Part shown: in pieces, positions 8,754 to 54,251 of the stretch
Layout of the letters: each line of letters starts with the position of its first letter
Numbering within the stretch: position 1 is the stretch's first letter
Origin: Pseudohongiella sp.
Lineage (GTDB): Bacteria; Pseudomonadota; Gammaproteobacteria; Pseudomonadales; Pseudohongiellaceae
Length of the DNA: 64,000 nt
Assembly: GCF_011050365.1 (NCBI RefSeq)
Contig: NZ_DRFV01000016.1
Coordinates: forward strand, 233,549-297,548
Reading direction: 5' to 3'
Program-made: the position numbers and the translations under genes
The notes under the pieces: generated by a model
What the model was told of the DNA's origin: nothing
What the model saw: only the letters and a program-made list of their open reading frames with translations
Database searches by the model: none

Positions 8754-10403
8754 TTACCAGCCCAGGGCGTGACGCATGACATGATAAATGTAGTTCTGTT
8801 CATGTGTGCTATGGAACAAATGCGCCCAGGGACCGCGGGCATAGATGGCCACATCTTCGCCGGCATGGCCTTCGGACTCCAGTGGCACCAGTGCTTCCTG
8901 GTGGAAGTCCGGGTGCGTGGTGTCGACTTCGCGCAGGTCGTGTCTGCCGCCGGCGATAGGCATCTGGTAGCGGCTGTCGCCACCGGCATCTTCAGCGAAG
9001 CCCAGTCCGTCACGGTAACCCAGTGTGGTATAAGGCATGTCGTCGGCCGCGATACTGACTCCGGCTTGTGGAAGGCCCTGGTCGTCGTTGCCGACAACTG
9101 TTCCCAGAATCGGGTTGCCGCGGGTGGCATACCCGCCAAGGGTCAACGTGTGGCTGTGATCGGCGGTAACAATGATCAGCGTGTCTTCATCGCTGGTCAG
9201 CGTCATCGCTTTCTGCACGGCGTCAGCGAACTCCCTGGTATCCTGCAGCGCCCGGTAGGCATTGCCTGCGTGGTGGGCATGATCAATACGGCCGCTTTCC
9301 ACCATCAGGAAAAAGCCGTCTTCCTGTCCCTGTTGTTGCAACAGGCGGATGGCGGTTTCCGTCATCGCGGGCAGGTCGGGTTCGCTGGCATCGTCGCCGG
9401 CGCGGTCATGGGAATAACTCATCTGGGAGCGACTGAACAGGCCTAGCACATGTGCGGTACTGGTGACGTCCACAGCTGCCAGCTGGTCCTTGTTCCAGAC
9501 AAAGGCGCTGTCGTTGTATTTCTCCAGCCATTCCCGGGTAAGGTTGCGGCCGTCCAGCCGCTGACCCGCCCCTCCCGTCAAGGGTTCAGTTTCTGTGGTC
9601 GGCACAAAGGCCGCCAGGCCGCCGCCCATGGCCACGTTGACGCCGGCGCCGAAATCAAAGGACAGCAATTGCGCGGCGATATCCTGACAACCAGCGGCAA
9701 TGGCTTCCGGGCTCAGGTTGGCGTCGCTTTCCCAGTTGCGCTCGGGGCTATGAGCATAGGTGGCTGCGGGTGTAGCGTGAGTGATACGGGTGGTGGTGAC
9801 AAAGCCGGTGGCCAGGCCACGGTCAGCAGCGTCCTGCATTAGGCTGGGCACTTCCGTGCCCAGCGAGGACTGGCAATCGCCACGGTCAGCGTATTGATTG
9901 ACCCCGATAACGCCGGCACGGGTCTTGATACCGGACATCATGGCAGTCATGGTGCCCGCAGAGTCAGCGGTCTGCTGGTTGGTGTTGTAGGTCTTGGACA
10001 GTGCCACGTAAGGGAAACTTTCGAATGTCAGCCGGTTCTCCTCGCCAGCGCTGCCGCGCAATTGACCATCGAATATGCGGGCGGCAGTGACCGTTGAGAT
10101 GCCCATACCATCACCGACAAAAAGGATGACATTTTTTGCCCTGTTGGTGATCGGTGTTCTGGCCATTGCGCGCTGGAGTTCGGCCTGTCCCTGCGCCTGC
10201 CAGTGCTCAGGTGATTCTTCAGCCGGTGCCGGGTAAAAAGTCTGTGCTGCTGCCAGCGGGGTCGCAGTGCTCAGTGCCAGGGTCAGCTGCAGACTGAATC
10301 GTATGCACGGGCTGTGATAGGCAAGACCGCGTCGTATGGTTGAGTAACAGGTTGATGCGACTGGATGAAGGTTGCTGGCTGACATGGATTGTCCTGGTAT
10401 CAT
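8754..10403 (-). CDS. Alkaline phosphatase (PhoA/PhoB-type family), exported
   Basis: 549 residues from ATG 10403; an in-frame ATG at 10385 gives a shorter leader and may be the true start. A hydrophobic stretch (about 35-52) ending in LAAAQ indicates export to the periplasm, where the enzyme releases phosphate from organic monoesters. Metal and catalytic motifs: Asp98 in FVGDGMG, nucleophile Ser148 in TADSAGTMTAMMSG, ESGRIDHAHHAG, and VTADHSHT. A Pho box with a correctly spaced -10 hexamer lies 32-65 bp upstream, so phosphate-starvation induction is expected. fadJ follows 125 bp downstream on the same strand but probably has its own promoter. Confidence 0.88.
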   Translation of the reverse strand: MIPGQSMSASNLHPVASTCYSTIRRGLAYHSPCIRFSLQLTLALSTATPLAAAQTFYPAPAEESPEHWQAQGQAELQRAMARTPITNRAKNVILFVGDGMGISTVTAARIFDGQLRGSAGEENRLTFESFPYVALSKTYNTNQQTADSAGTMTAMMSGIKTRAGVIGVNQYADRGDCQSSLGTEVPSLMQDAADRGLATGFVTTTRITHATPAATYAHSPERNWESDANLSPEAIAAGCQDIAAQLLSFDFGAGVNVAMGGGLAAFVPTTETEPLTGGAGQRLDGRNLTREWLEKYNDSAFVWNKDQLAAVDVTSTAHVLGLFSRSQMSYSHDRAGDDASEPDLPAMTETAIRLLQQQGQEDGFFLMVESGRIDHAHHAGNAYRALQDTREFADAVQKAMTLTSDEDTLIIVTADHSHTLTLGGYATRGNPILGTVVGNDDQGLPQAGVSIAADDMPYTTLGYRDGLGFAEDAGGDSRYQMPIAGGRHDLREVDTTHPDFHQEALVPLESEGHAGEDVAIYARGPWAHLFHSTHEQNYIYHVMRHALGW

Positions 10404-47933: not shown

Positions 47934-50252
47934 TCAGTGTTCCGTATTGGGTTCGTCGAGCACCTTGCGGACCTTGGCCGCCAGTTCCTGGCGGCGGTAG
48001 GGTTTGTTCAACAAATGCACGCCTCGATCCAGGCGACCATGATGAACGATGGCATTTTCGGTGTAACCGGAGGTGAACAGTACCCTGGTGCCCGGTCGCA
48101 ATTGGCAAGCCAGTTCAGCCAACTGGCGGCCATTCATGGTGCCCGGCATGACAATGTCGGTAAACAGCAAATCGATATCGCTCAATTGCTTAAGAATATT
48201 CAGAGCCTCGTCTGCATGGCTGGCAGTGTTAACGCGGTAACCCAGCGCCCTGAGTTCTTTGCTGACATGTTCGCGGACCAGAGGGTCGTCTTCGACCAGC
48301 AGGATATTTTCCGTGCCGCCTTCAATGGCAGGTGTCAGGTGGCCTTCATAAACGCCGTCGTCTGTGGACACGGAGCGCGGCAGGTAAAGCTTGATTGTAG
48401 TGCCTTCGCCGACTTCCGAGTAGATCTTGACGTGGCCACCGCTTTGTTTGGTAAAACCAAACACCATGCTCAGGCCCAGGCCGCTGCCCCTGCCGATCTG
48501 TTTGGTAGTGAAGAAGGGTTCAAACGCCTTTTTGAGCACGTCCGGTGTCATGCCCGTGCCGGTGTCAGACACGGAAACCATCACATATTGGCCGGGCAGA
48601 ACTTCGTCGTGACCGTCCGCGTAATGCTGATCCAATTGGGCGTTGCCGGTCTCAATGGTGAGTTTGCCGCCTGCCGGCATGGCGTCGCGGGCATTGATGG
48701 CAAGATTGAGTATGGCGCCCTCAAGTTGTCCCGGATCAACTTCCGACAACCACAGTCCTCCCGCATATACTGTTTCGATGTCGATGTTTTCCTGCAAGGT
48801 GCGGCGCAACAGGCTGTCCATGTTCTGGATGAGCTTGTTGATGTTGACGTTCTGCGGATCAAGCGGTTGTCGCCGGGAGAAAGCAAGCAAACGGTTGGTC
48901 AGTTCAGCGCCACGCTCGGCGGCAGTCGCGGTCATCTCGGCGAGGAGACGCAGTTGCTGTTGGTCGCTGAGTTGCTCAGTCAGTAGCTCGGCATTGCCAA
49001 GAATCACAGTCAACAGATTGTTGAAATCGTGAGCGACCCCGCCCGTGAGTTGTCCCACCGCTTCCAGTTTCTGGGCCTGTTGCAGGCGCTCGTCCATGGC
49101 GACGCTTTCAGTTATATCCATCATGCTACCCACCATGCGCATGGGCGTGCCTTCGGCGTCCCGGATGACAAATCCGCGATCACTGACAATTCGGGTTGAG
49201 CCGTCGGCGTGCATGAAACGATATTGATCGTGCCAACTGTTGGTGCTGCTATCAAGCACCCGCCTGACGCCATCAAGTACCCGGCTGCGGTCATCGTCAT
49301 GAATCTTGTTGGTCCAGGATACGTAGTCTGGTGCCGGCACATACGGATCATAGCCAAAGACCGTTAGCAGGTTGTCGTTCCACCACATGATGTCTGTGTC
49401 AAAACTCCAGTCCCAGATAACATCGTTGGTCGCTTTGGCAATGAGGCTGAAGCGCTCGTCGCTGATACGCAACGACTCCTCACTGGCCACGCGCTCGGTG
49501 ACGTCGCGGAAGTATACAGCGAGTCCATCTTGTGTCGGGTAGGCACTGACATCAAACCATGCGTTCAGCGGCTCCGGATAAAACTCGGTGAAACGCGTGG
49601 TACGTTGTTCTCGCATGGCCAGCTCGTAATTGTGACGGAAGCTGGTGTCACGCGCGGCAGGAAATTCGTCCCAGATATGTTTGCCTCGCAAATCGTCTTT
49701 GCGTCGCAACAGCAGGATCTCCGCCTGCGTGTTCATGAAACCGAAACGCCAGTCATGGTCGATCAGCATAAAAGCATCGCTGATGTTTTCAAGCGTCTGT
49801 TGCAACTGTCGGGACAGCGATTCGGATCGTTCGCGTGCGGCAATCAGCTCCGAGATATCCTGAAACGCCCCGTGAATCTCGATGATGGTGCCGTCGTCGT
49901 CCCTCACCGCCTCTCCGATGGCGCGCGCCCAAAGACGTTTGCCCTGTGCTGTGATCACTTGCAGCACCTCGTCAAACGACGTGCCATCCGTCATGCATTT
50001 GTCGACGGCCACGCGGATCCGCTCGCGATGCTCAGGCGCGTAAAAGTCCATTCCCGTGGCCAGGGTAGGTTGGTAGTCGGGCGGGACCTGGTGCATGGCC
50101 CGGGTTTCCGGCGACCAATGCATCTTATTGTTGACAAGGTCAAGGCTCCAGCCCCCGAGCTTGGCGGCAGCGCCGGCGATTCTCAATAGCTCACTCATCT
50201 TGAGGGTGTCTTGATGGCTCATAATAAAATCACGGGCGTTTTTCTCTATCAT
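47934..50252 (-). CDS. Soluble hybrid histidine kinase (PAS x3-HisKA-HATPase-REC)
   Basis: 772 residues without TM segments, so cytoplasmic. Three PAS domains (~20-137, ~150-255, ~265-382), HisKA with His408 (GGVAHDFNN), HATPase with N box (LNLAINARDAM), DTGTGMT and GRGSGLGLS, and a C-terminal receiver with Asp699. The start is uncertain: in-frame ATGs at 50252, 50222 and 50198 all lack good ribosome sites; 50252 overlaps the upstream REC-EAL gene by 23 nt. Closely related in layout to the kinase at 28791. Confidence 0.87.
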   Translation of the reverse strand: MIEKNARDFIMSHQDTLKMSELLRIAGAAAKLGGWSLDLVNNKMHWSPETRAMHQVPPDYQPTLATGMDFYAPEHRERIRVAVDKCMTDGTSFDEVLQVITAQGKRLWARAIGEAVRDDDGTIIEIHGAFQDISELIAARERSESLSRQLQQTLENISDAFMLIDHDWRFGFMNTQAEILLLRRKDDLRGKHIWDEFPAARDTSFRHNYELAMREQRTTRFTEFYPEPLNAWFDVSAYPTQDGLAVYFRDVTERVASEESLRISDERFSLIAKATNDVIWDWSFDTDIMWWNDNLLTVFGYDPYVPAPDYVSWTNKIHDDDRSRVLDGVRRVLDSSTNSWHDQYRFMHADGSTRIVSDRGFVIRDAEGTPMRMVGSMMDITESVAMDERLQQAQKLEAVGQLTGGVAHDFNNLLTVILGNAELLTEQLSDQQQLRLLAEMTATAAERGAELTNRLLAFSRRQPLDPQNVNINKLIQNMDSLLRRTLQENIDIETVYAGGLWLSEVDPGQLEGAILNLAINARDAMPAGGKLTIETGNAQLDQHYADGHDEVLPGQYVMVSVSDTGTGMTPDVLKKAFEPFFTTKQIGRGSGLGLSMVFGFTKQSGGHVKIYSEVGEGTTIKLYLPRSVSTDDGVYEGHLTPAIEGGTENILLVEDDPLVREHVSKELRALGYRVNTASHADEALNILKQLSDIDLLFTDIVMPGTMNGRQLAELACQLRPGTRVLFTSGYTENAIVHHGRLDRGVHLLNKPYRRQELAAKVRKVLDEPNTEH

Positions 50253-51435
50253 GCAGCCATTGCAGTGCTAACTTCGGCGCCATTGGCCGGCCGATGTGAT
50301 AGCCCTGAGCATGAGTACAGCCGAGGTCGCACAGAAACTGCAGTGTCCAGTCGTCCTCCACTCCCTCCGCGGTGACATTCAGATCGAGCGCGTTTGCCAG
50401 CCCAATCACGGCGGTGGCGATTTTTTGTGACTCGATCGAGCTGGATGCGGACATGACAAACATCTTGTCGATTTTCATTTCGGAGAATGGCAGGCGCGCC
50501 AGCTGGACCAGCGAAGAGTACCCCACACCAAAGTCATCAATGGACAGATTAAATCCCTTGATACGGAACTGTGTCAGATACTCAAGCGAGGCGACCGGGT
50601 TCTCCATGCTGCTGGTTTCGGTTATCTCCAGGGTAATCTGGGAAGGCGCGACGCCGTAACGCTCGCAGGCCTGTTTGATCCACACGGGAAATTGCGCGTC
50701 GGCCAACACGATCGGAGACATATTGATTGCCAGCTTCAGGTCGGTTTCCAGGAAATTGGCGGCAAACCAGGCCAGGCTCATGTCAAAGACCTGGCGCGTG
50801 AGCTCGGCGATGTGGCCGTGGCGTTCGGCCAGGGTGATAAACTGATCGGGAAATATCATGCCGCGTTCGGGGTGTTCCCAGCGTACCAGACTTTCAAAAC
50901 CTACGACCTTCTCTGTCGTGCACTCGATTTTAGGTTGATAGTGCACGCAAAGCTGCTTCTGCGCCAGCGCCGTTGCCAGCATGTCAGCGCTGACCGGAGA
51001 CACATACTGAACGGTTGCCGTTGGTGGTTTCTGGTCGCCCGGCTCTTGATGCAACAAACTGCGAAGCTTGGCCGGAGTGAACGGTTTGGGCAGGACGCCG
51101 GAGACTCTCAGACCGTTTTCTTCGGCAGCCCGGCTGGCTGCTTCCAGCACGCGCCCGCCCAGGCCGCTGGTGACAATGACACTGCCCTGATGACCGGAAA
51201 GTGCCAGGCGATGCAATGTTTCCACGCCGTCCACCTCAGGCATTACCAGATCGACAATCAGGTGGGTTGGTTGCCAGTCCATGACCAGTTGGAAGAACTC
51301 TTCCGCTTTTGTGGTCGCCTGGGTCTCGAACCCGGCCCGGTCCGCAATCGCGCAGATGGTCGCGCTGACATTGATGTCATCATCCAGCACCAGTAGACGG
51401 CCGGAGTGATTTGCGTTGTCTTCATTTGCCCCCAT
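50230..51435 (-). CDS. REC-EAL response regulator (c-di-GMP phosphodiesterase)
   Basis: 401 residues from ATG 51435, chosen because AGGAG lies 5 nt upstream and because the longer frame from 51468 would run into the Pho box array. REC domain with Asp62 in IVDLVMP, then an EAL domain (~150-400): ESL in place of EAL with the catalytic Glu kept, NMS, EITET, SIDDFGVGYSS, MKIDKMF and EGVED. All metal-binding acidic residues are present, so cleavage of c-di-GMP is plausible. It is cotranscribed with the hybrid kinase that overlaps its 3' end and is divergent from the TonB-dependent receptor gene. Confidence 0.87.
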   Translation of the reverse strand: MGANEDNANHSGRLLVLDDDINVSATICAIADRAGFETQATTKAEEFFQLVMDWQPTHLIVDLVMPEVDGVETLHRLALSGHQGSVIVTSGLGGRVLEAASRAAEENGLRVSGVLPKPFTPAKLRSLLHQEPGDQKPPTATVQYVSPVSADMLATALAQKQLCVHYQPKIECTTEKVVGFESLVRWEHPERGMIFPDQFITLAERHGHIAELTRQVFDMSLAWFAANFLETDLKLAINMSPIVLADAQFPVWIKQACERYGVAPSQITLEITETSSMENPVASLEYLTQFRIKGFNLSIDDFGVGYSSLVQLARLPFSEMKIDKMFVMSASSSIESQKIATAVIGLANALDLNVTAEGVEDDWTLQFLCDLGCTHAQGYHIGRPMAPKLALQWLHDREKRP

Positions 51436-51461
51436 GGAGTCTCCTTTTCCGGGACGTCGCA

Positions 51462-51528
51462 CTGTCACATTATTGTTATGAAAGTGTTATCGAACTGTCG
51501 TTCGGTTGTTATAGACAGGTCCTATAGT
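51462..51528 (+). promoter_or_regulatory. Five-half-site Pho box array and promoter of the TonB-receptor gene
   Basis: Five 7-mers recur at an exact 11-nt period: CTGTCAC (51462-51468), TTGTTAT (51473-51479), GTGTTAT (51484-51490), CTGTCGT (51495-51501) and TTGTTAT (51506-51512). TGT is invariant at positions 2-4 and all five fit the PhoB half-site CTGTCAT/C with one to three mismatches. After the last half-site come exactly 10 nt and then TATAGT (51523-51528), a good -10. The ATG is 36 nt further on. This geometry is that of PhoB-activated promoters; four or more half-sites mean cooperative binding. Highly likely phosphate-starvation control of the receptor gene. Confidence 0.75.
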
Positions 51529-51563
51529 ACCCGCTCCGAATACACTATCTGGGGTTTTACCTA

Positions 51564-53918
51564 ATGACAACCAAAAAATTGTATCGTGGCGTCTGTCTGG
51601 CGATCGGCGGCCTGGTGGCCGCGCCGTTTGCAATTGCTCAGGACGCGCCGGCGGTGGAAGAAATGGTCGTAACGTCGCAAATGCGCACCTTTGCCAGCAG
51701 CACCGTCAGTGAAGAAATGCTTAAACAGGTATCCGGAGCGTCCAGCGTGCTGGGTGCCATAGACTATATCCCTGGCGTACTGGTAAACGAAGGCGATGCC
51801 TTCGGCGGTGATGACTGGTCCACAACCATCAGCATCCGCGGTTTTCAGGTCAGTCTGGATGAGCAGCAACTGGGCATGACCATAGACGGCATTCCCAATG
51901 GTAACTCCAACTACGGTGGCGGTTCCAAGGCCAACCGCTTCCTGGACACGGAAAACCTGTTTGCTGTTGACGTCGTGCAGGGCACTTCTGATATCGCCTC
52001 CTGGTCGCACGAAGCGCTGGGTGGCAGCATGAACTTCCGCAGTGTAGACCCGACCCGGGAAGCGGGTCTGACCGCCTCCACCACCTTCGGCGATAACAAC
52101 GCGCGCAAGGTGTTCGTGCGCTATAACACCGGTGAGATCATGGATAACACCTTTGCCTGGATCAGCATGTCCGGTTCAGACATTGATTCATGGATTGATG
52201 GGTCCGGTGAATCCAATCGTGATCATATTGCTGCAAAACTGAAGGGTTACTACGATAATGTCGAACTGACCGGCTACATCTCCTACGATGATGCCCATGA
52301 AGACAACTATCAGCGCATTACACCGCAGGAATTTATCGAAGATCCGACCTGGGACCGTCTGACCGGAAACTGGACGGGCATCCCCCACGTTGATCAGCTG
52401 TATCGTCGCGCCTGGTCGACCCTGCGCAAGAACCTGCTGGCGTATGCCAAAGCCGAGTTTGAGGTGTCGGGCATCGATTTCAGTACCTCGGTTTATCACC
52501 ATGATAACAGTGGCCGCGGTGACTGGATCCCGCCTTACATCGTTGACGTGCGTAACGACGGTGCCGGCAACCCTAATTCAGAACTGAACACCGGTGCGCC
52601 AGTGTTGGGCGGCGGCCCGCTGGGAACCATTACCTTTGTGGATGCTTCGGGTCGTGCGCTGCAGCCCACGCCGGGTTGTCAAAGCTCGCTGGTATTCCCT
52701 TATGGTGGGGCCGGTCCCGCTTACGATCCAGCCTGTTTCCCCGCCGGCGCGGTGCCGGTCAGTTCCTATCGTCACACCGTGTATGACAAGCAGCGCACCG
52801 GCTTTGTCGCTGACTTCTCCTGGATGCAGGAGCTCAGTCAGTTTGATAACACCCTGCGTGGCGGTTTCTGGTATGAAGACAACAAGCGTAACGAGTCGCG
52901 CGACTGGTTAAAGGTCATAGATTCCAGGACCAGCGCCAACTTCAACCATGTGCCATATTGGACTCAGTACGATCGCACGTTCCCGCAGGAAACCATGACC
53001 TGGTACCTGGAGGACACCATTGTTGCAGGTCCTTTGACTGCACGCCTGGGTGCCAAACAATACCTGGTAGATATTGATCGTGAAGACGAGCATCAGGGTG
53101 GGCTGAGAACGGCTTCCGTCAACTCCGACTCTGACGTGCTGCTTAGTGGTGGTCTGGTATATACCCTGCCGGTGGATGGCCTGGAAGCGTTTATGGGTTA
53201 TGCCGAAAGTTTCTCCTCCATCAAGGATGGTGTACTGGAAGCCAACCAGACGGCGCTGGATTCAGTGGAACCGGAAACTGCGGACAGCATGGACATCGGT
53301 TTGCGTTACACCAGCGGCATGTTCAACGCCAGCCTGACCTACTACGATATTGAGTTCGCCAACCGTATCACCTACATTCCGGAAGGTTCTACTGACGGCA
53401 TCGATTACCTGGGTGAAAGCGATGGTGCCTATGTCAACGTCGGTGGTATTGAGTCATCGGGCGTGGAAGCCGCGATACAGGCAATGGTCACTGAGACATT
53501 GAGTCTGTATTTCTCCTACACCAAGAACGATTCCACTTATATTGGCACCCCGGACCCGGCTGCCAACACGCTGCTGGGTGTATTCCCGGGCAATACCGTG
53601 TTTGGTTCTGCTGAAGACATGTTTGTCATCTCCGCAGACTGGCGCCGTGACAATTTCTCTGCCGGCCTGACCTACAAAGACGTTGGCGACCGCTGGTTGA
53701 ATGCTGCCAATATCACGCGTATTGACGGGTATGGCGTCGCTGATCTGTATGTCGGCGTTGATCTTGATCAGTACCTGGAGGGCCTGAAAGGTGCCAGTCT
53801 TCAGGTTAACGTCACCAACCTGACCGACAAGTCCTACATCGGTGGTGTTGCCGGTGGCTGGGGTGGCTGGATCGCCCCACCGCGCACTGCCACGGCAACC
53901 CTGACAGTCGACTTCTGA
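51564..53918 (+). CDS. TonB-dependent receptor, Pho-regulated
   Basis: 784 residues. Signal peptide ends at FAIAQ; a TonB-box-like EEMVVTS follows at residues ~33-39. The plug domain (~45-160) has ISIRGFQVSLDEQQ, TIDGIPNG and VDVVQGTSDIASWSHEALGGSMNF; the remaining ~620 residues form the barrel with a terminal Phe (TLTVDF). Energised by TonB-ExbBD, it imports a scarce compound over the outer membrane. The Pho array upstream and the phosphatase genes downstream suggest a phosphorus compound such as a nucleotide or other phosphoester; iron complexes are the alternative. An intrinsic terminator follows. Confidence 0.9.
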   Translation: MTTKKLYRGVCLAIGGLVAAPFAIAQDAPAVEEMVVTSQMRTFASSTVSEEMLKQVSGASSVLGAIDYIPGVLVNEGDAFGGDDWSTTISIRGFQVSLDEQQLGMTIDGIPNGNSNYGGGSKANRFLDTENLFAVDVVQGTSDIASWSHEALGGSMNFRSVDPTREAGLTASTTFGDNNARKVFVRYNTGEIMDNTFAWISMSGSDIDSWIDGSGESNRDHIAAKLKGYYDNVELTGYISYDDAHEDNYQRITPQEFIEDPTWDRLTGNWTGIPHVDQLYRRAWSTLRKNLLAYAKAEFEVSGIDFSTSVYHHDNSGRGDWIPPYIVDVRNDGAGNPNSELNTGAPVLGGGPLGTITFVDASGRALQPTPGCQSSLVFPYGGAGPAYDPACFPAGAVPVSSYRHTVYDKQRTGFVADFSWMQELSQFDNTLRGGFWYEDNKRNESRDWLKVIDSRTSANFNHVPYWTQYDRTFPQETMTWYLEDTIVAGPLTARLGAKQYLVDIDREDEHQGGLRTASVNSDSDVLLSGGLVYTLPVDGLEAFMGYAESFSSIKDGVLEANQTALDSVEPETADSMDIGLRYTSGMFNASLTYYDIEFANRITYIPEGSTDGIDYLGESDGAYVNVGGIESSGVEAAIQAMVTETLSLYFSYTKNDSTYIGTPDPAANTLLGVFPGNTVFGSAEDMFVISADWRRDNFSAGLTYKDVGDRWLNAANITRIDGYGVADLYVGVDLDQYLEGLKGASLQVNVTNLTDKSYIGGVAGGWGGWIAPPRTATATLTVDF

Positions 53919-53939
53919 GCGACGTCAATTGGCTAAACA

Positions 53940-53975
53940 AAAAGGCCTGCAGTGTTAGCTGCGGGCCTTTTTTTT
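53940..53975 (+). terminator. Intrinsic terminator of the TonB-receptor gene
   Basis: Stem GGCCTGCAG (53944-53952) pairs with CTGCGGGCC (53959-53967) through one G-T wobble, loop TGTTAG, followed by eight T residues (53968-53975); the A-run before the stem would make it act in both directions. It lies 25 nt after the stop codon. Confidence 0.88.
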
Positions 53976-54016
53976 CCGACACGCCGACATGGCTTGTCAT
54001 GATTGCAGGAGAAAAA

Positions 54017-54251
54017 ATGAAAACCCGGCTGCCAGTTATGTTTATGCTGCCGATCTTGTCTGGCCCCATCCGGGCCGCAGAAAATGTGATACTGATAACA
54101 ATTGGTTGTCTTCGCTGGCAGGAATTGTATTGTGCCTGACAGTTGTCTCACTGCCGATGCTATTGCCGCGACCCTGATGCAGTGGCTCGGCGAGGACTAC
54201 CGGGATTACAATGACGCCATGGTCGCACCGATGAAGGAGTTCTTACCGTGA
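54017..54251 (+). pseudogene. Internally deleted remnant of an alkaline-phosphatase/phosphodiesterase-family gene
   Basis: An intact 5' end (AGGAG ribosome site, ATG 54017) encodes a signal peptide and the start of the metal-dependent phosphatase fold: NVILITIGCLRWQELY resembles the family pattern NVILITIDGLRWQE. The frame stops at 54139. From 54132 another frame reads to TGA at 54251 and looks like the C-terminal end of the same family: DAIAATLMQWLGEDYRDYN followed by PMKEFLP, compare the usual IAATIAALLGLDY...PIKE. Only 40 plus 39 codons remain of a gene that is normally over 400 codons, with a frame change at the junction. The remnant overlaps the phoD start by 4 nt (GTGA). Confidence 0.6.

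Follow-up and report, generated by a model that had tools for sequence, protein, structure and literature searches.

Upstream of a TonB-dependent receptor gene of Pseudohongiella sp., five TGT-centred 7-mers follow one another on the plus strand with an exact period of 11 nt, and after a further 10 nt comes TATAGT (51462-51528). Is this array the operator of a phosphate-starvation promoter, and, if so, which of the flanking genes does it serve? Direct reading of the sequence bears out each element that the sequence-only reading had described, that is, the five half-sites, the 11-nt period, the 10 nt and TATAGT. All positions refer to the window, the whole stretch of 64,000 nucleotides that was analysed (Table 1).

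Table 1. Features of the predicted PhoB-controlled promoter and the adjoining genes (window coordinates).
Feature	Position	Strand	Evidence or remark
Predicted PhoB half-site 1 (distal), CTGTCAC	51462..51468	+	matrix score 10.4
Predicted PhoB half-site 2, TTGTTAT	51473..51479	+	matrix score 7.7
Predicted PhoB half-site 3, GTGTTAT, weakest of the five	51484..51490	+	matrix score 3.1
Predicted PhoB half-site 4, CTGTCGT	51495..51501	+	matrix score 7.5
Predicted PhoB half-site 5 (promoter-proximal), TTGTTAT	51506..51512	+	matrix score 7.7
Minus-10-like TATAGT, 10 nt past half-site 5	51523..51528	+	TANNNT at the same spacing in 8/8 genus rows
TonB-dependent receptor, 784 aa, predicted PhoB target	51564..53918	+	Pfam TonB_dep_Rec_b-barrel 9.4e-34, Plug 2.5e-12
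Hairpin and U tract after the receptor gene	53939..53977	+	RNA fold z -3.9
Type I phosphodiesterase gene remnant	54017..54250	+	tblastn with the L003 protein
PhoD-like phosphatase, 350 aa	54248..55300	+	Pfam PhoD 4.7e-17
Divergent REC-EAL gene, 401 aa from the likely ATG	50230..51435	-	Pfam EAL 2.2e-67, Response_reg 2.5e-11

The units of the array are unequal. Three of the five have T in place of C at position 5 of the half-site, and unit 3 is low-scoring, so that number may compensate for quality; this suggests an array in which many units make up for weak ones, not a uniformly strong site. In the three closest relatives, half-site 3 reads CTGTTAT (rows L086-L088). The 10-nt stretch between half-site 5 and TATAGT is AGACAGGTCC. 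At the pstS site of the same genome, TACAGT is found at the identical spacing, and that site, which was found without requiring a minus-10 element, nonetheless has one there. A sigma-70 consensus pair was not found on either strand in 51380-51600. In PhoB-activated promoters, the spacing between the proximal half-site and the minus-10 element is constant and a minus-35 consensus is lacking; those of E. coli resemble the receptor promoter in this respect.

The genome encodes both PhoB (TIGR02154, 329 bits, cut-off 296.2) and PhoR (TIGR02966, 410.8, cut-off 334.2), and PhoU (TIGR02135) and PstS (TIGR02136) likewise pass their NCBIfam cut-offs. A genome search for half-site pairs followed after 10 nt by TANNNT, one mismatch being tolerated, yielded 16 matches versus 6 for the backwards control. 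Eleven of these are at phosphate genes, namely pstS, the interval between pstS and the next gene (two matches), phoU, a PhoD, a PhoX, a GDPD, a Porin_O_P porin, a Na/Pi cotransporter, a PhoA and the TonB receptor itself; the remaining five are at genes without an assigned phosphate role. The gene after pstS is, by position alone, pstC. The PhoX and GDPD sites overlap the longest open frame, and a later start codon must therefore be assumed there.

The receptor promoter thus combines at least two CTGTCAT-like half-sites at 11 nt (five here) and a minus-10 element at a fixed distance with an encoded PhoB/PhoR pair, occurrence of the motif at accepted Pho genes and conservation in related genomes. 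Together with the phosphatase genes of the operon described below, this upholds the view of the sequence-only reading that a PhoB-type array stands before a TonB-dependent receptor gene. Judged from sequence, the array is very probably the operator of a PhoB-activated promoter for the receptor gene and, in many relatives, for a receptor-phosphodiesterase-PhoD operon.

In E. coli, PhoB replaces the minus-35 element and recruits the sigma-70 polymerase, and we carry this over to the receptor promoter. Under phosphate starvation, PhoR would phosphorylate PhoB, which would occupy the 11-nt repeats head to tail, the mode of binding described for PhoB on 11-nt units (PMC4415409, PMC6194859). The promoter-proximal units would substitute for the absent minus-35 element and recruit RNA polymerase to TATAGT, and the additional upstream half-sites, several of them sub-optimal, would increase occupancy through cooperative binding. 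We infer PhoB binding, its cooperativity and the response to phosphate from this arrangement. The substrate then taken in by the receptor would be an organic phosphorus compound, to be split by the phosphatases.

Two of these matches at phosphate genes can be described more closely. Within the window, a PhoA-type alkaline phosphatase gene (8754-10403, minus strand) is preceded by a Pho-box-like site and a minus-10-like element (10468-10435). Elsewhere, the promoter of a Porin_O_P (phosphate-selective porin) gene has four half-sites in register with at most three mismatches (L116; G000 contig C9, about 54100-54173) and, by eye, a further half-site pair that is 3 nt out of register. With the receptor array, long arrays are accordingly found at two outer-membrane uptake genes of the genome.

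The genes downstream of the receptor fit a role in phosphorus acquisition in the form of phosphodiesterase and PhoD-like genes, presumably read on a single transcript with it. In the window the phosphodiesterase gene is a remnant that retains both ends, recognisable as residues 5-42 and 334-376 of its relative in L003, which has 376 aa. In L003 itself the frame is full-length (Pfam Phosphodiest 2.5e-06), and in L007 it encodes 372 aa. Among 75 receptor-family loci from named records, a type I phosphodiesterase gene follows the receptor in 46, a PhoD-like gene in 53, and both, the phosphodiesterase before PhoD, in 44, in one of which PhoD lies 1255 nt further on; these counts are lower bounds, the gene caller dropping overlapping frames and some contigs ending early, and neighbour families were assigned from one Pfam-tested representative per cluster. 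Among the open-access papers listed, none describes this gene set in its title or the start of its abstract, which is weak evidence of absence. The recurrent order of the set points to TonB-driven uptake as a route by which marine gammaproteobacteria could obtain dissolved organic phosphorus. The nearest solved relatives of the receptor by sequence are metallophore receptors (a weak resemblance, best E 1.5e-10), and the substrate could therefore be a metal chelate.

The hairpin after the receptor gene is present in all loci that were folded, that is, the window, L003 and L007; the pattern-based scan listed no terminator at this position. It is possibly a partial terminator that lowers the expression of the distal genes. 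In Streptomyces lividans, terminators between pstS and pstC have been suggested to lower distal expression (PMC7866108).

Is the array maintained in evolution? Receptor matches were detected in 14 of 15 genomes of the genus, one genome having none. Close orthologues (at least 77% identity, nearly full length) are present in eight of the 15, the source genome included, that is, in seven of the 14 other genomes searched; the remaining six matches are distant (24-35% identity), leaving seven of the 15 genomes without a close orthologue. Relatives of the receptor gene include named records of Pseudohongiella, a genus of Pseudomonadales, at 86% and 77% identity, as well as gammaproteobacterial assemblies at 86-94%. 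The array is clear in six of the eight orthologues, eroded in one (G008) and doubtful in one (G014), and in all eight the best-scoring placement of five units has TANNNT 10 nt beyond its last unit.

In the four closest genomes (G000, G001, G005, G011), none of the 15 TGT columns varies and the array lies 102 nt from the receptor start; the 11-nt period, the loss of which in close relatives would have counted against a regulatory site, is thus retained. However, the spacers are almost as constant, with 16 of 20 columns invariant, and these four genomes are therefore too near to show selection alone; the mean majority-base share in the 11 nt preceding the array is 0.64. Across all eight orthologues, 7/15 TGT columns are invariant versus 4/20 spacer columns. 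In G003 and G007, the TGT core is lost in two array units; the units of G008 are eroded (score 40.5 of 52.5), and the score of G014, 35.5, is near background, given that 37 of 84,546 positions in the genus loci, arrays included, reach at least 35.

In the wider set of 75 loci, 25 loci from nine groups, as labelled by us, have a run of three good period-11 units (score at least 25.2 of 31.5) on the strand of the gene, including eight Rheinheimera and five Pseudohongiella loci, versus two loci for the other strand and 0 to 3 for each of six other periods. The remaining 50 loci fall short of this threshold, including 23 of 25 Pseudoalteromonas and the four Verrucomicrobia-type loci.

The divergent REC-EAL gene is the other candidate target. 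Its most likely start, chosen by eye behind an AAGGAGA ribosome-binding site, is 51435. The array does come close to this gene, but it does not fill the space up to it as had been thought, because 26 nt separate the likely ATG from half-site 1. It overlaps the beginning of the gene for a PAS hybrid histidine kinase, and the pair (47934-51435, minus strand) may therefore form one operon.

Under a two-way switch, PhoB on 51462-51512 would activate the receptor and also block or activate REC-EAL and the histidine kinase, tying phosphate starvation to cyclic di-GMP. The 26-nt gap argues for such a switch, since the REC-EAL promoter must overlap the array or lie beyond it, and overlap with the promoter region makes repression possible; the neighbour is, moreover, retained in four of the eight genus loci (G000, G001, G005, G011). 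However, at the other four the upstream neighbours are different genes, and the array is kept, clearly or recognisably, in G003, G007 and G008, G014 being doubtful, so that the array is not confined to loci with the divergent gene. Furthermore, no array faces REC-EAL, the best period-11 score on the minus strand of the window being only 4.4, and the absence of a sigma-70 consensus pair from 51380-51600 holds for both strands. As a weak hint in the same direction, the distance to the receptor is 102 nt in all four loci with the neighbour versus 24-26 nt, by eye, to REC-EAL. The suggestion that one PhoB filament serves both directions is therefore not supported, and we regard a two-way switch as unlikely; the idea that the array serves REC-EAL was set aside on the REC-EAL-free genus loci that retain it.

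A bolder combination can be formulated, in which five mostly sub-optimal half-sites would form a steep, cooperative switch controlling a previously undescribed operon of gammaproteobacteria for the uptake of organophosphates (TonB receptor, phosphodiesterase, PhoD) and, in the REC-EAL-bearing branch of Pseudohongiella, would also shut off that cyclic di-GMP phosphodiesterase. We consider it quite improbable; if true, phosphate starvation would directly shift surface attachment.

Of the four genus genomes that lack REC-EAL beside the receptor, three encode similar proteins at other places (38-55% identity) and G014 has none at E 1e-60. In G003 (contig C5, about 1093367) and G007 (contig C1, about 1636303), the 55%-identity REC-EAL-like gene lies about 23 kb from the receptor. 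In another gammaproteobacterium (L151), a four-unit Pho-like array (two mismatches; 1501, minus strand) lies 56 nt upstream of an EAL-CBS-GGDEF frame, a possible link between phosphate and cyclic di-GMP.

The operator of the receptor promoter could also belong to another regulator of the OmpR family with a similar 11-nt direct repeat, given that regulators of this family in general bind tandem repeats. The half-sites, however, resemble those at the pstS, PhoA, PhoX, PhoD and porin genes of the same genome, as well as the PhoB consensus CTGTCAT (PMC4415409), which makes such a regulator a very remote prospect.

Several comparisons bear on whether the array could arise without regulatory function. 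On both strands of the window, runs of TGT at periods 8-15 have at most three members, with the sole exception of the run of five at period 11 in the receptor array. Throughout the genome (3,632,751 bases, 17 contigs), four TGT at 11 nt occur only at this array, as two overlapping matches; the backwards control of this search is uninformative because TGT at a fixed period is the same pattern read backwards. A shuffle test of the array pattern, which allowed three mismatches and does not bear on the exact match, was not significant: there were four matches, three of them registers of the receptor array, and 11 of 100 shuffles equalled that number.

The matrix of Table 1 was trained on 20 half-sites from 10 other sites of the same genome. 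Because these came from TGT-based patterns, with five matches at non-phosphate genes excluded, the matrix is independent of the receptor array but not of the assumption that PhoB sites hold TGT. The scan of the window with this matrix bore out the 11-nt periodicity, with a five-unit score of 36.3 at 51462, compared to a best score of 14.5 at any other period between 7 and 16. The runner-up forward scores at period 11, 23.2 and 23.1, are taken to be shifted registers of the same array, their positions being assumed. Chance, or a plain tandem duplication without regulatory role, which could have produced the TGTTAT core common to three of the five units, is of nearly negligible probability given that 60 Markov-simulated windows reached no more than 16.3 at period 11, that the spacers between units are not identical to each other and that the array is present in relatives down to 77% receptor identity.

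How unusual is a PhoB array of this length? A four-unit TGTCAY pattern with at most three mismatches was found in 56 of 185 gammaproteobacterial genomes, the source genome included, versus 1/185 for the backwards control, and the notion that long arrays are exceptional was therefore dropped. In a subset of 30 of the matching loci, 20 are followed within 450 nt by the start of a correctly oriented gene; the other 10 have no such start, and two of them are inside an open frame. By Pfam, 12 of the 20 assignable genes are of Pho type (five PBP_like_2, taken as PstS, six Porin_O_P and one alkaline phosphatase), three are of other phosphoesterase types (Phosphodiest, Metallophos, PAP2) and five belong to other families or none (EAL, pyruvate kinase, a reductase and two without a family). 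A strict search for YTGT five times over in 369 genomes of the class matched 10 genomes, in stretches that by eye are repeats or TGTGGATAA-like, not Pho-like; it does not gauge the frequency of five-unit Pho arrays and leaves the receptor array uncounted because unit 3 starts with G.

Comparison with known systems places the receptor promoter among PhoB operators with several units. It shares with the E. coli Pho box the CTGTCAT-like 7-mers at each 11 nt (PMC4415409, PMC6194859) but, whereas the basic Pho box has two repeats, the receptor array has five in one register, several of them with TGTTA in place of TGTCA. Multiple Pho boxes are described at E. coli ugp (PMC4415409); the available text of another paper gives a consensus without half-site counts (PMC3465305). 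Many 11-nt repeats are also a feature of the PhoP operators of Streptomyces: the footprinted protected region of pitH2 contains four core and two weaker repeats, six in all, and glpQ2 has five, some poorly conserved; binding at such operators is stepwise (PMC7866108). PhoP is, however, another regulator, the consensus of which, GTTCACC, is unlike the receptor array (PMC4415409).

TonB-dependent receptors have been linked to phosphate starvation as well. In Caulobacter crescentus, the PhoB regulon includes such receptors, proposed to import alternative phosphate donors (PMC11208175); the likeness, compared by description, is that of a TonB-dependent receptor under PhoB, in a different bacterial class. 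Counting against the PhoB reading, the Caulobacter receptor Cc0171, found in phosphate-starved stalks, is constitutive (PMC2996285). In Flavobacterium, the outer-membrane TonB transporter of the PusCD phosphate utilisation systems is induced by phosphate depletion and encoded beside phosphodiesterases or phosphatases (PMC8115612), but that system, from another phylum, has a SusD-type partner. No SusD-like protein was found among the five window neighbours (REC-EAL, histidine kinase, PhoD, MarC, symporter) or among 10 representatives of the neighbour clusters of the relatives, so that the paired SusD/PusD lipoprotein of a PusCD-type phosphate utilisation system is missing from the neighbours scanned. 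The available text of a paper on copepod-associated phosphatases does not mention TonB (PMC7261903).

With the PhoB reading, the Pho regulon predicted for this marine genus gains a receptor gene, and the array offers a test of the trade-off between the number and the quality of half-sites. Because four-unit arrays are common, five and six repeats occur in Streptomyces, and PhoB-linked TonB receptors are known, the receptor promoter is a good, conserved example of an already known kind of phosphate-starvation switch.
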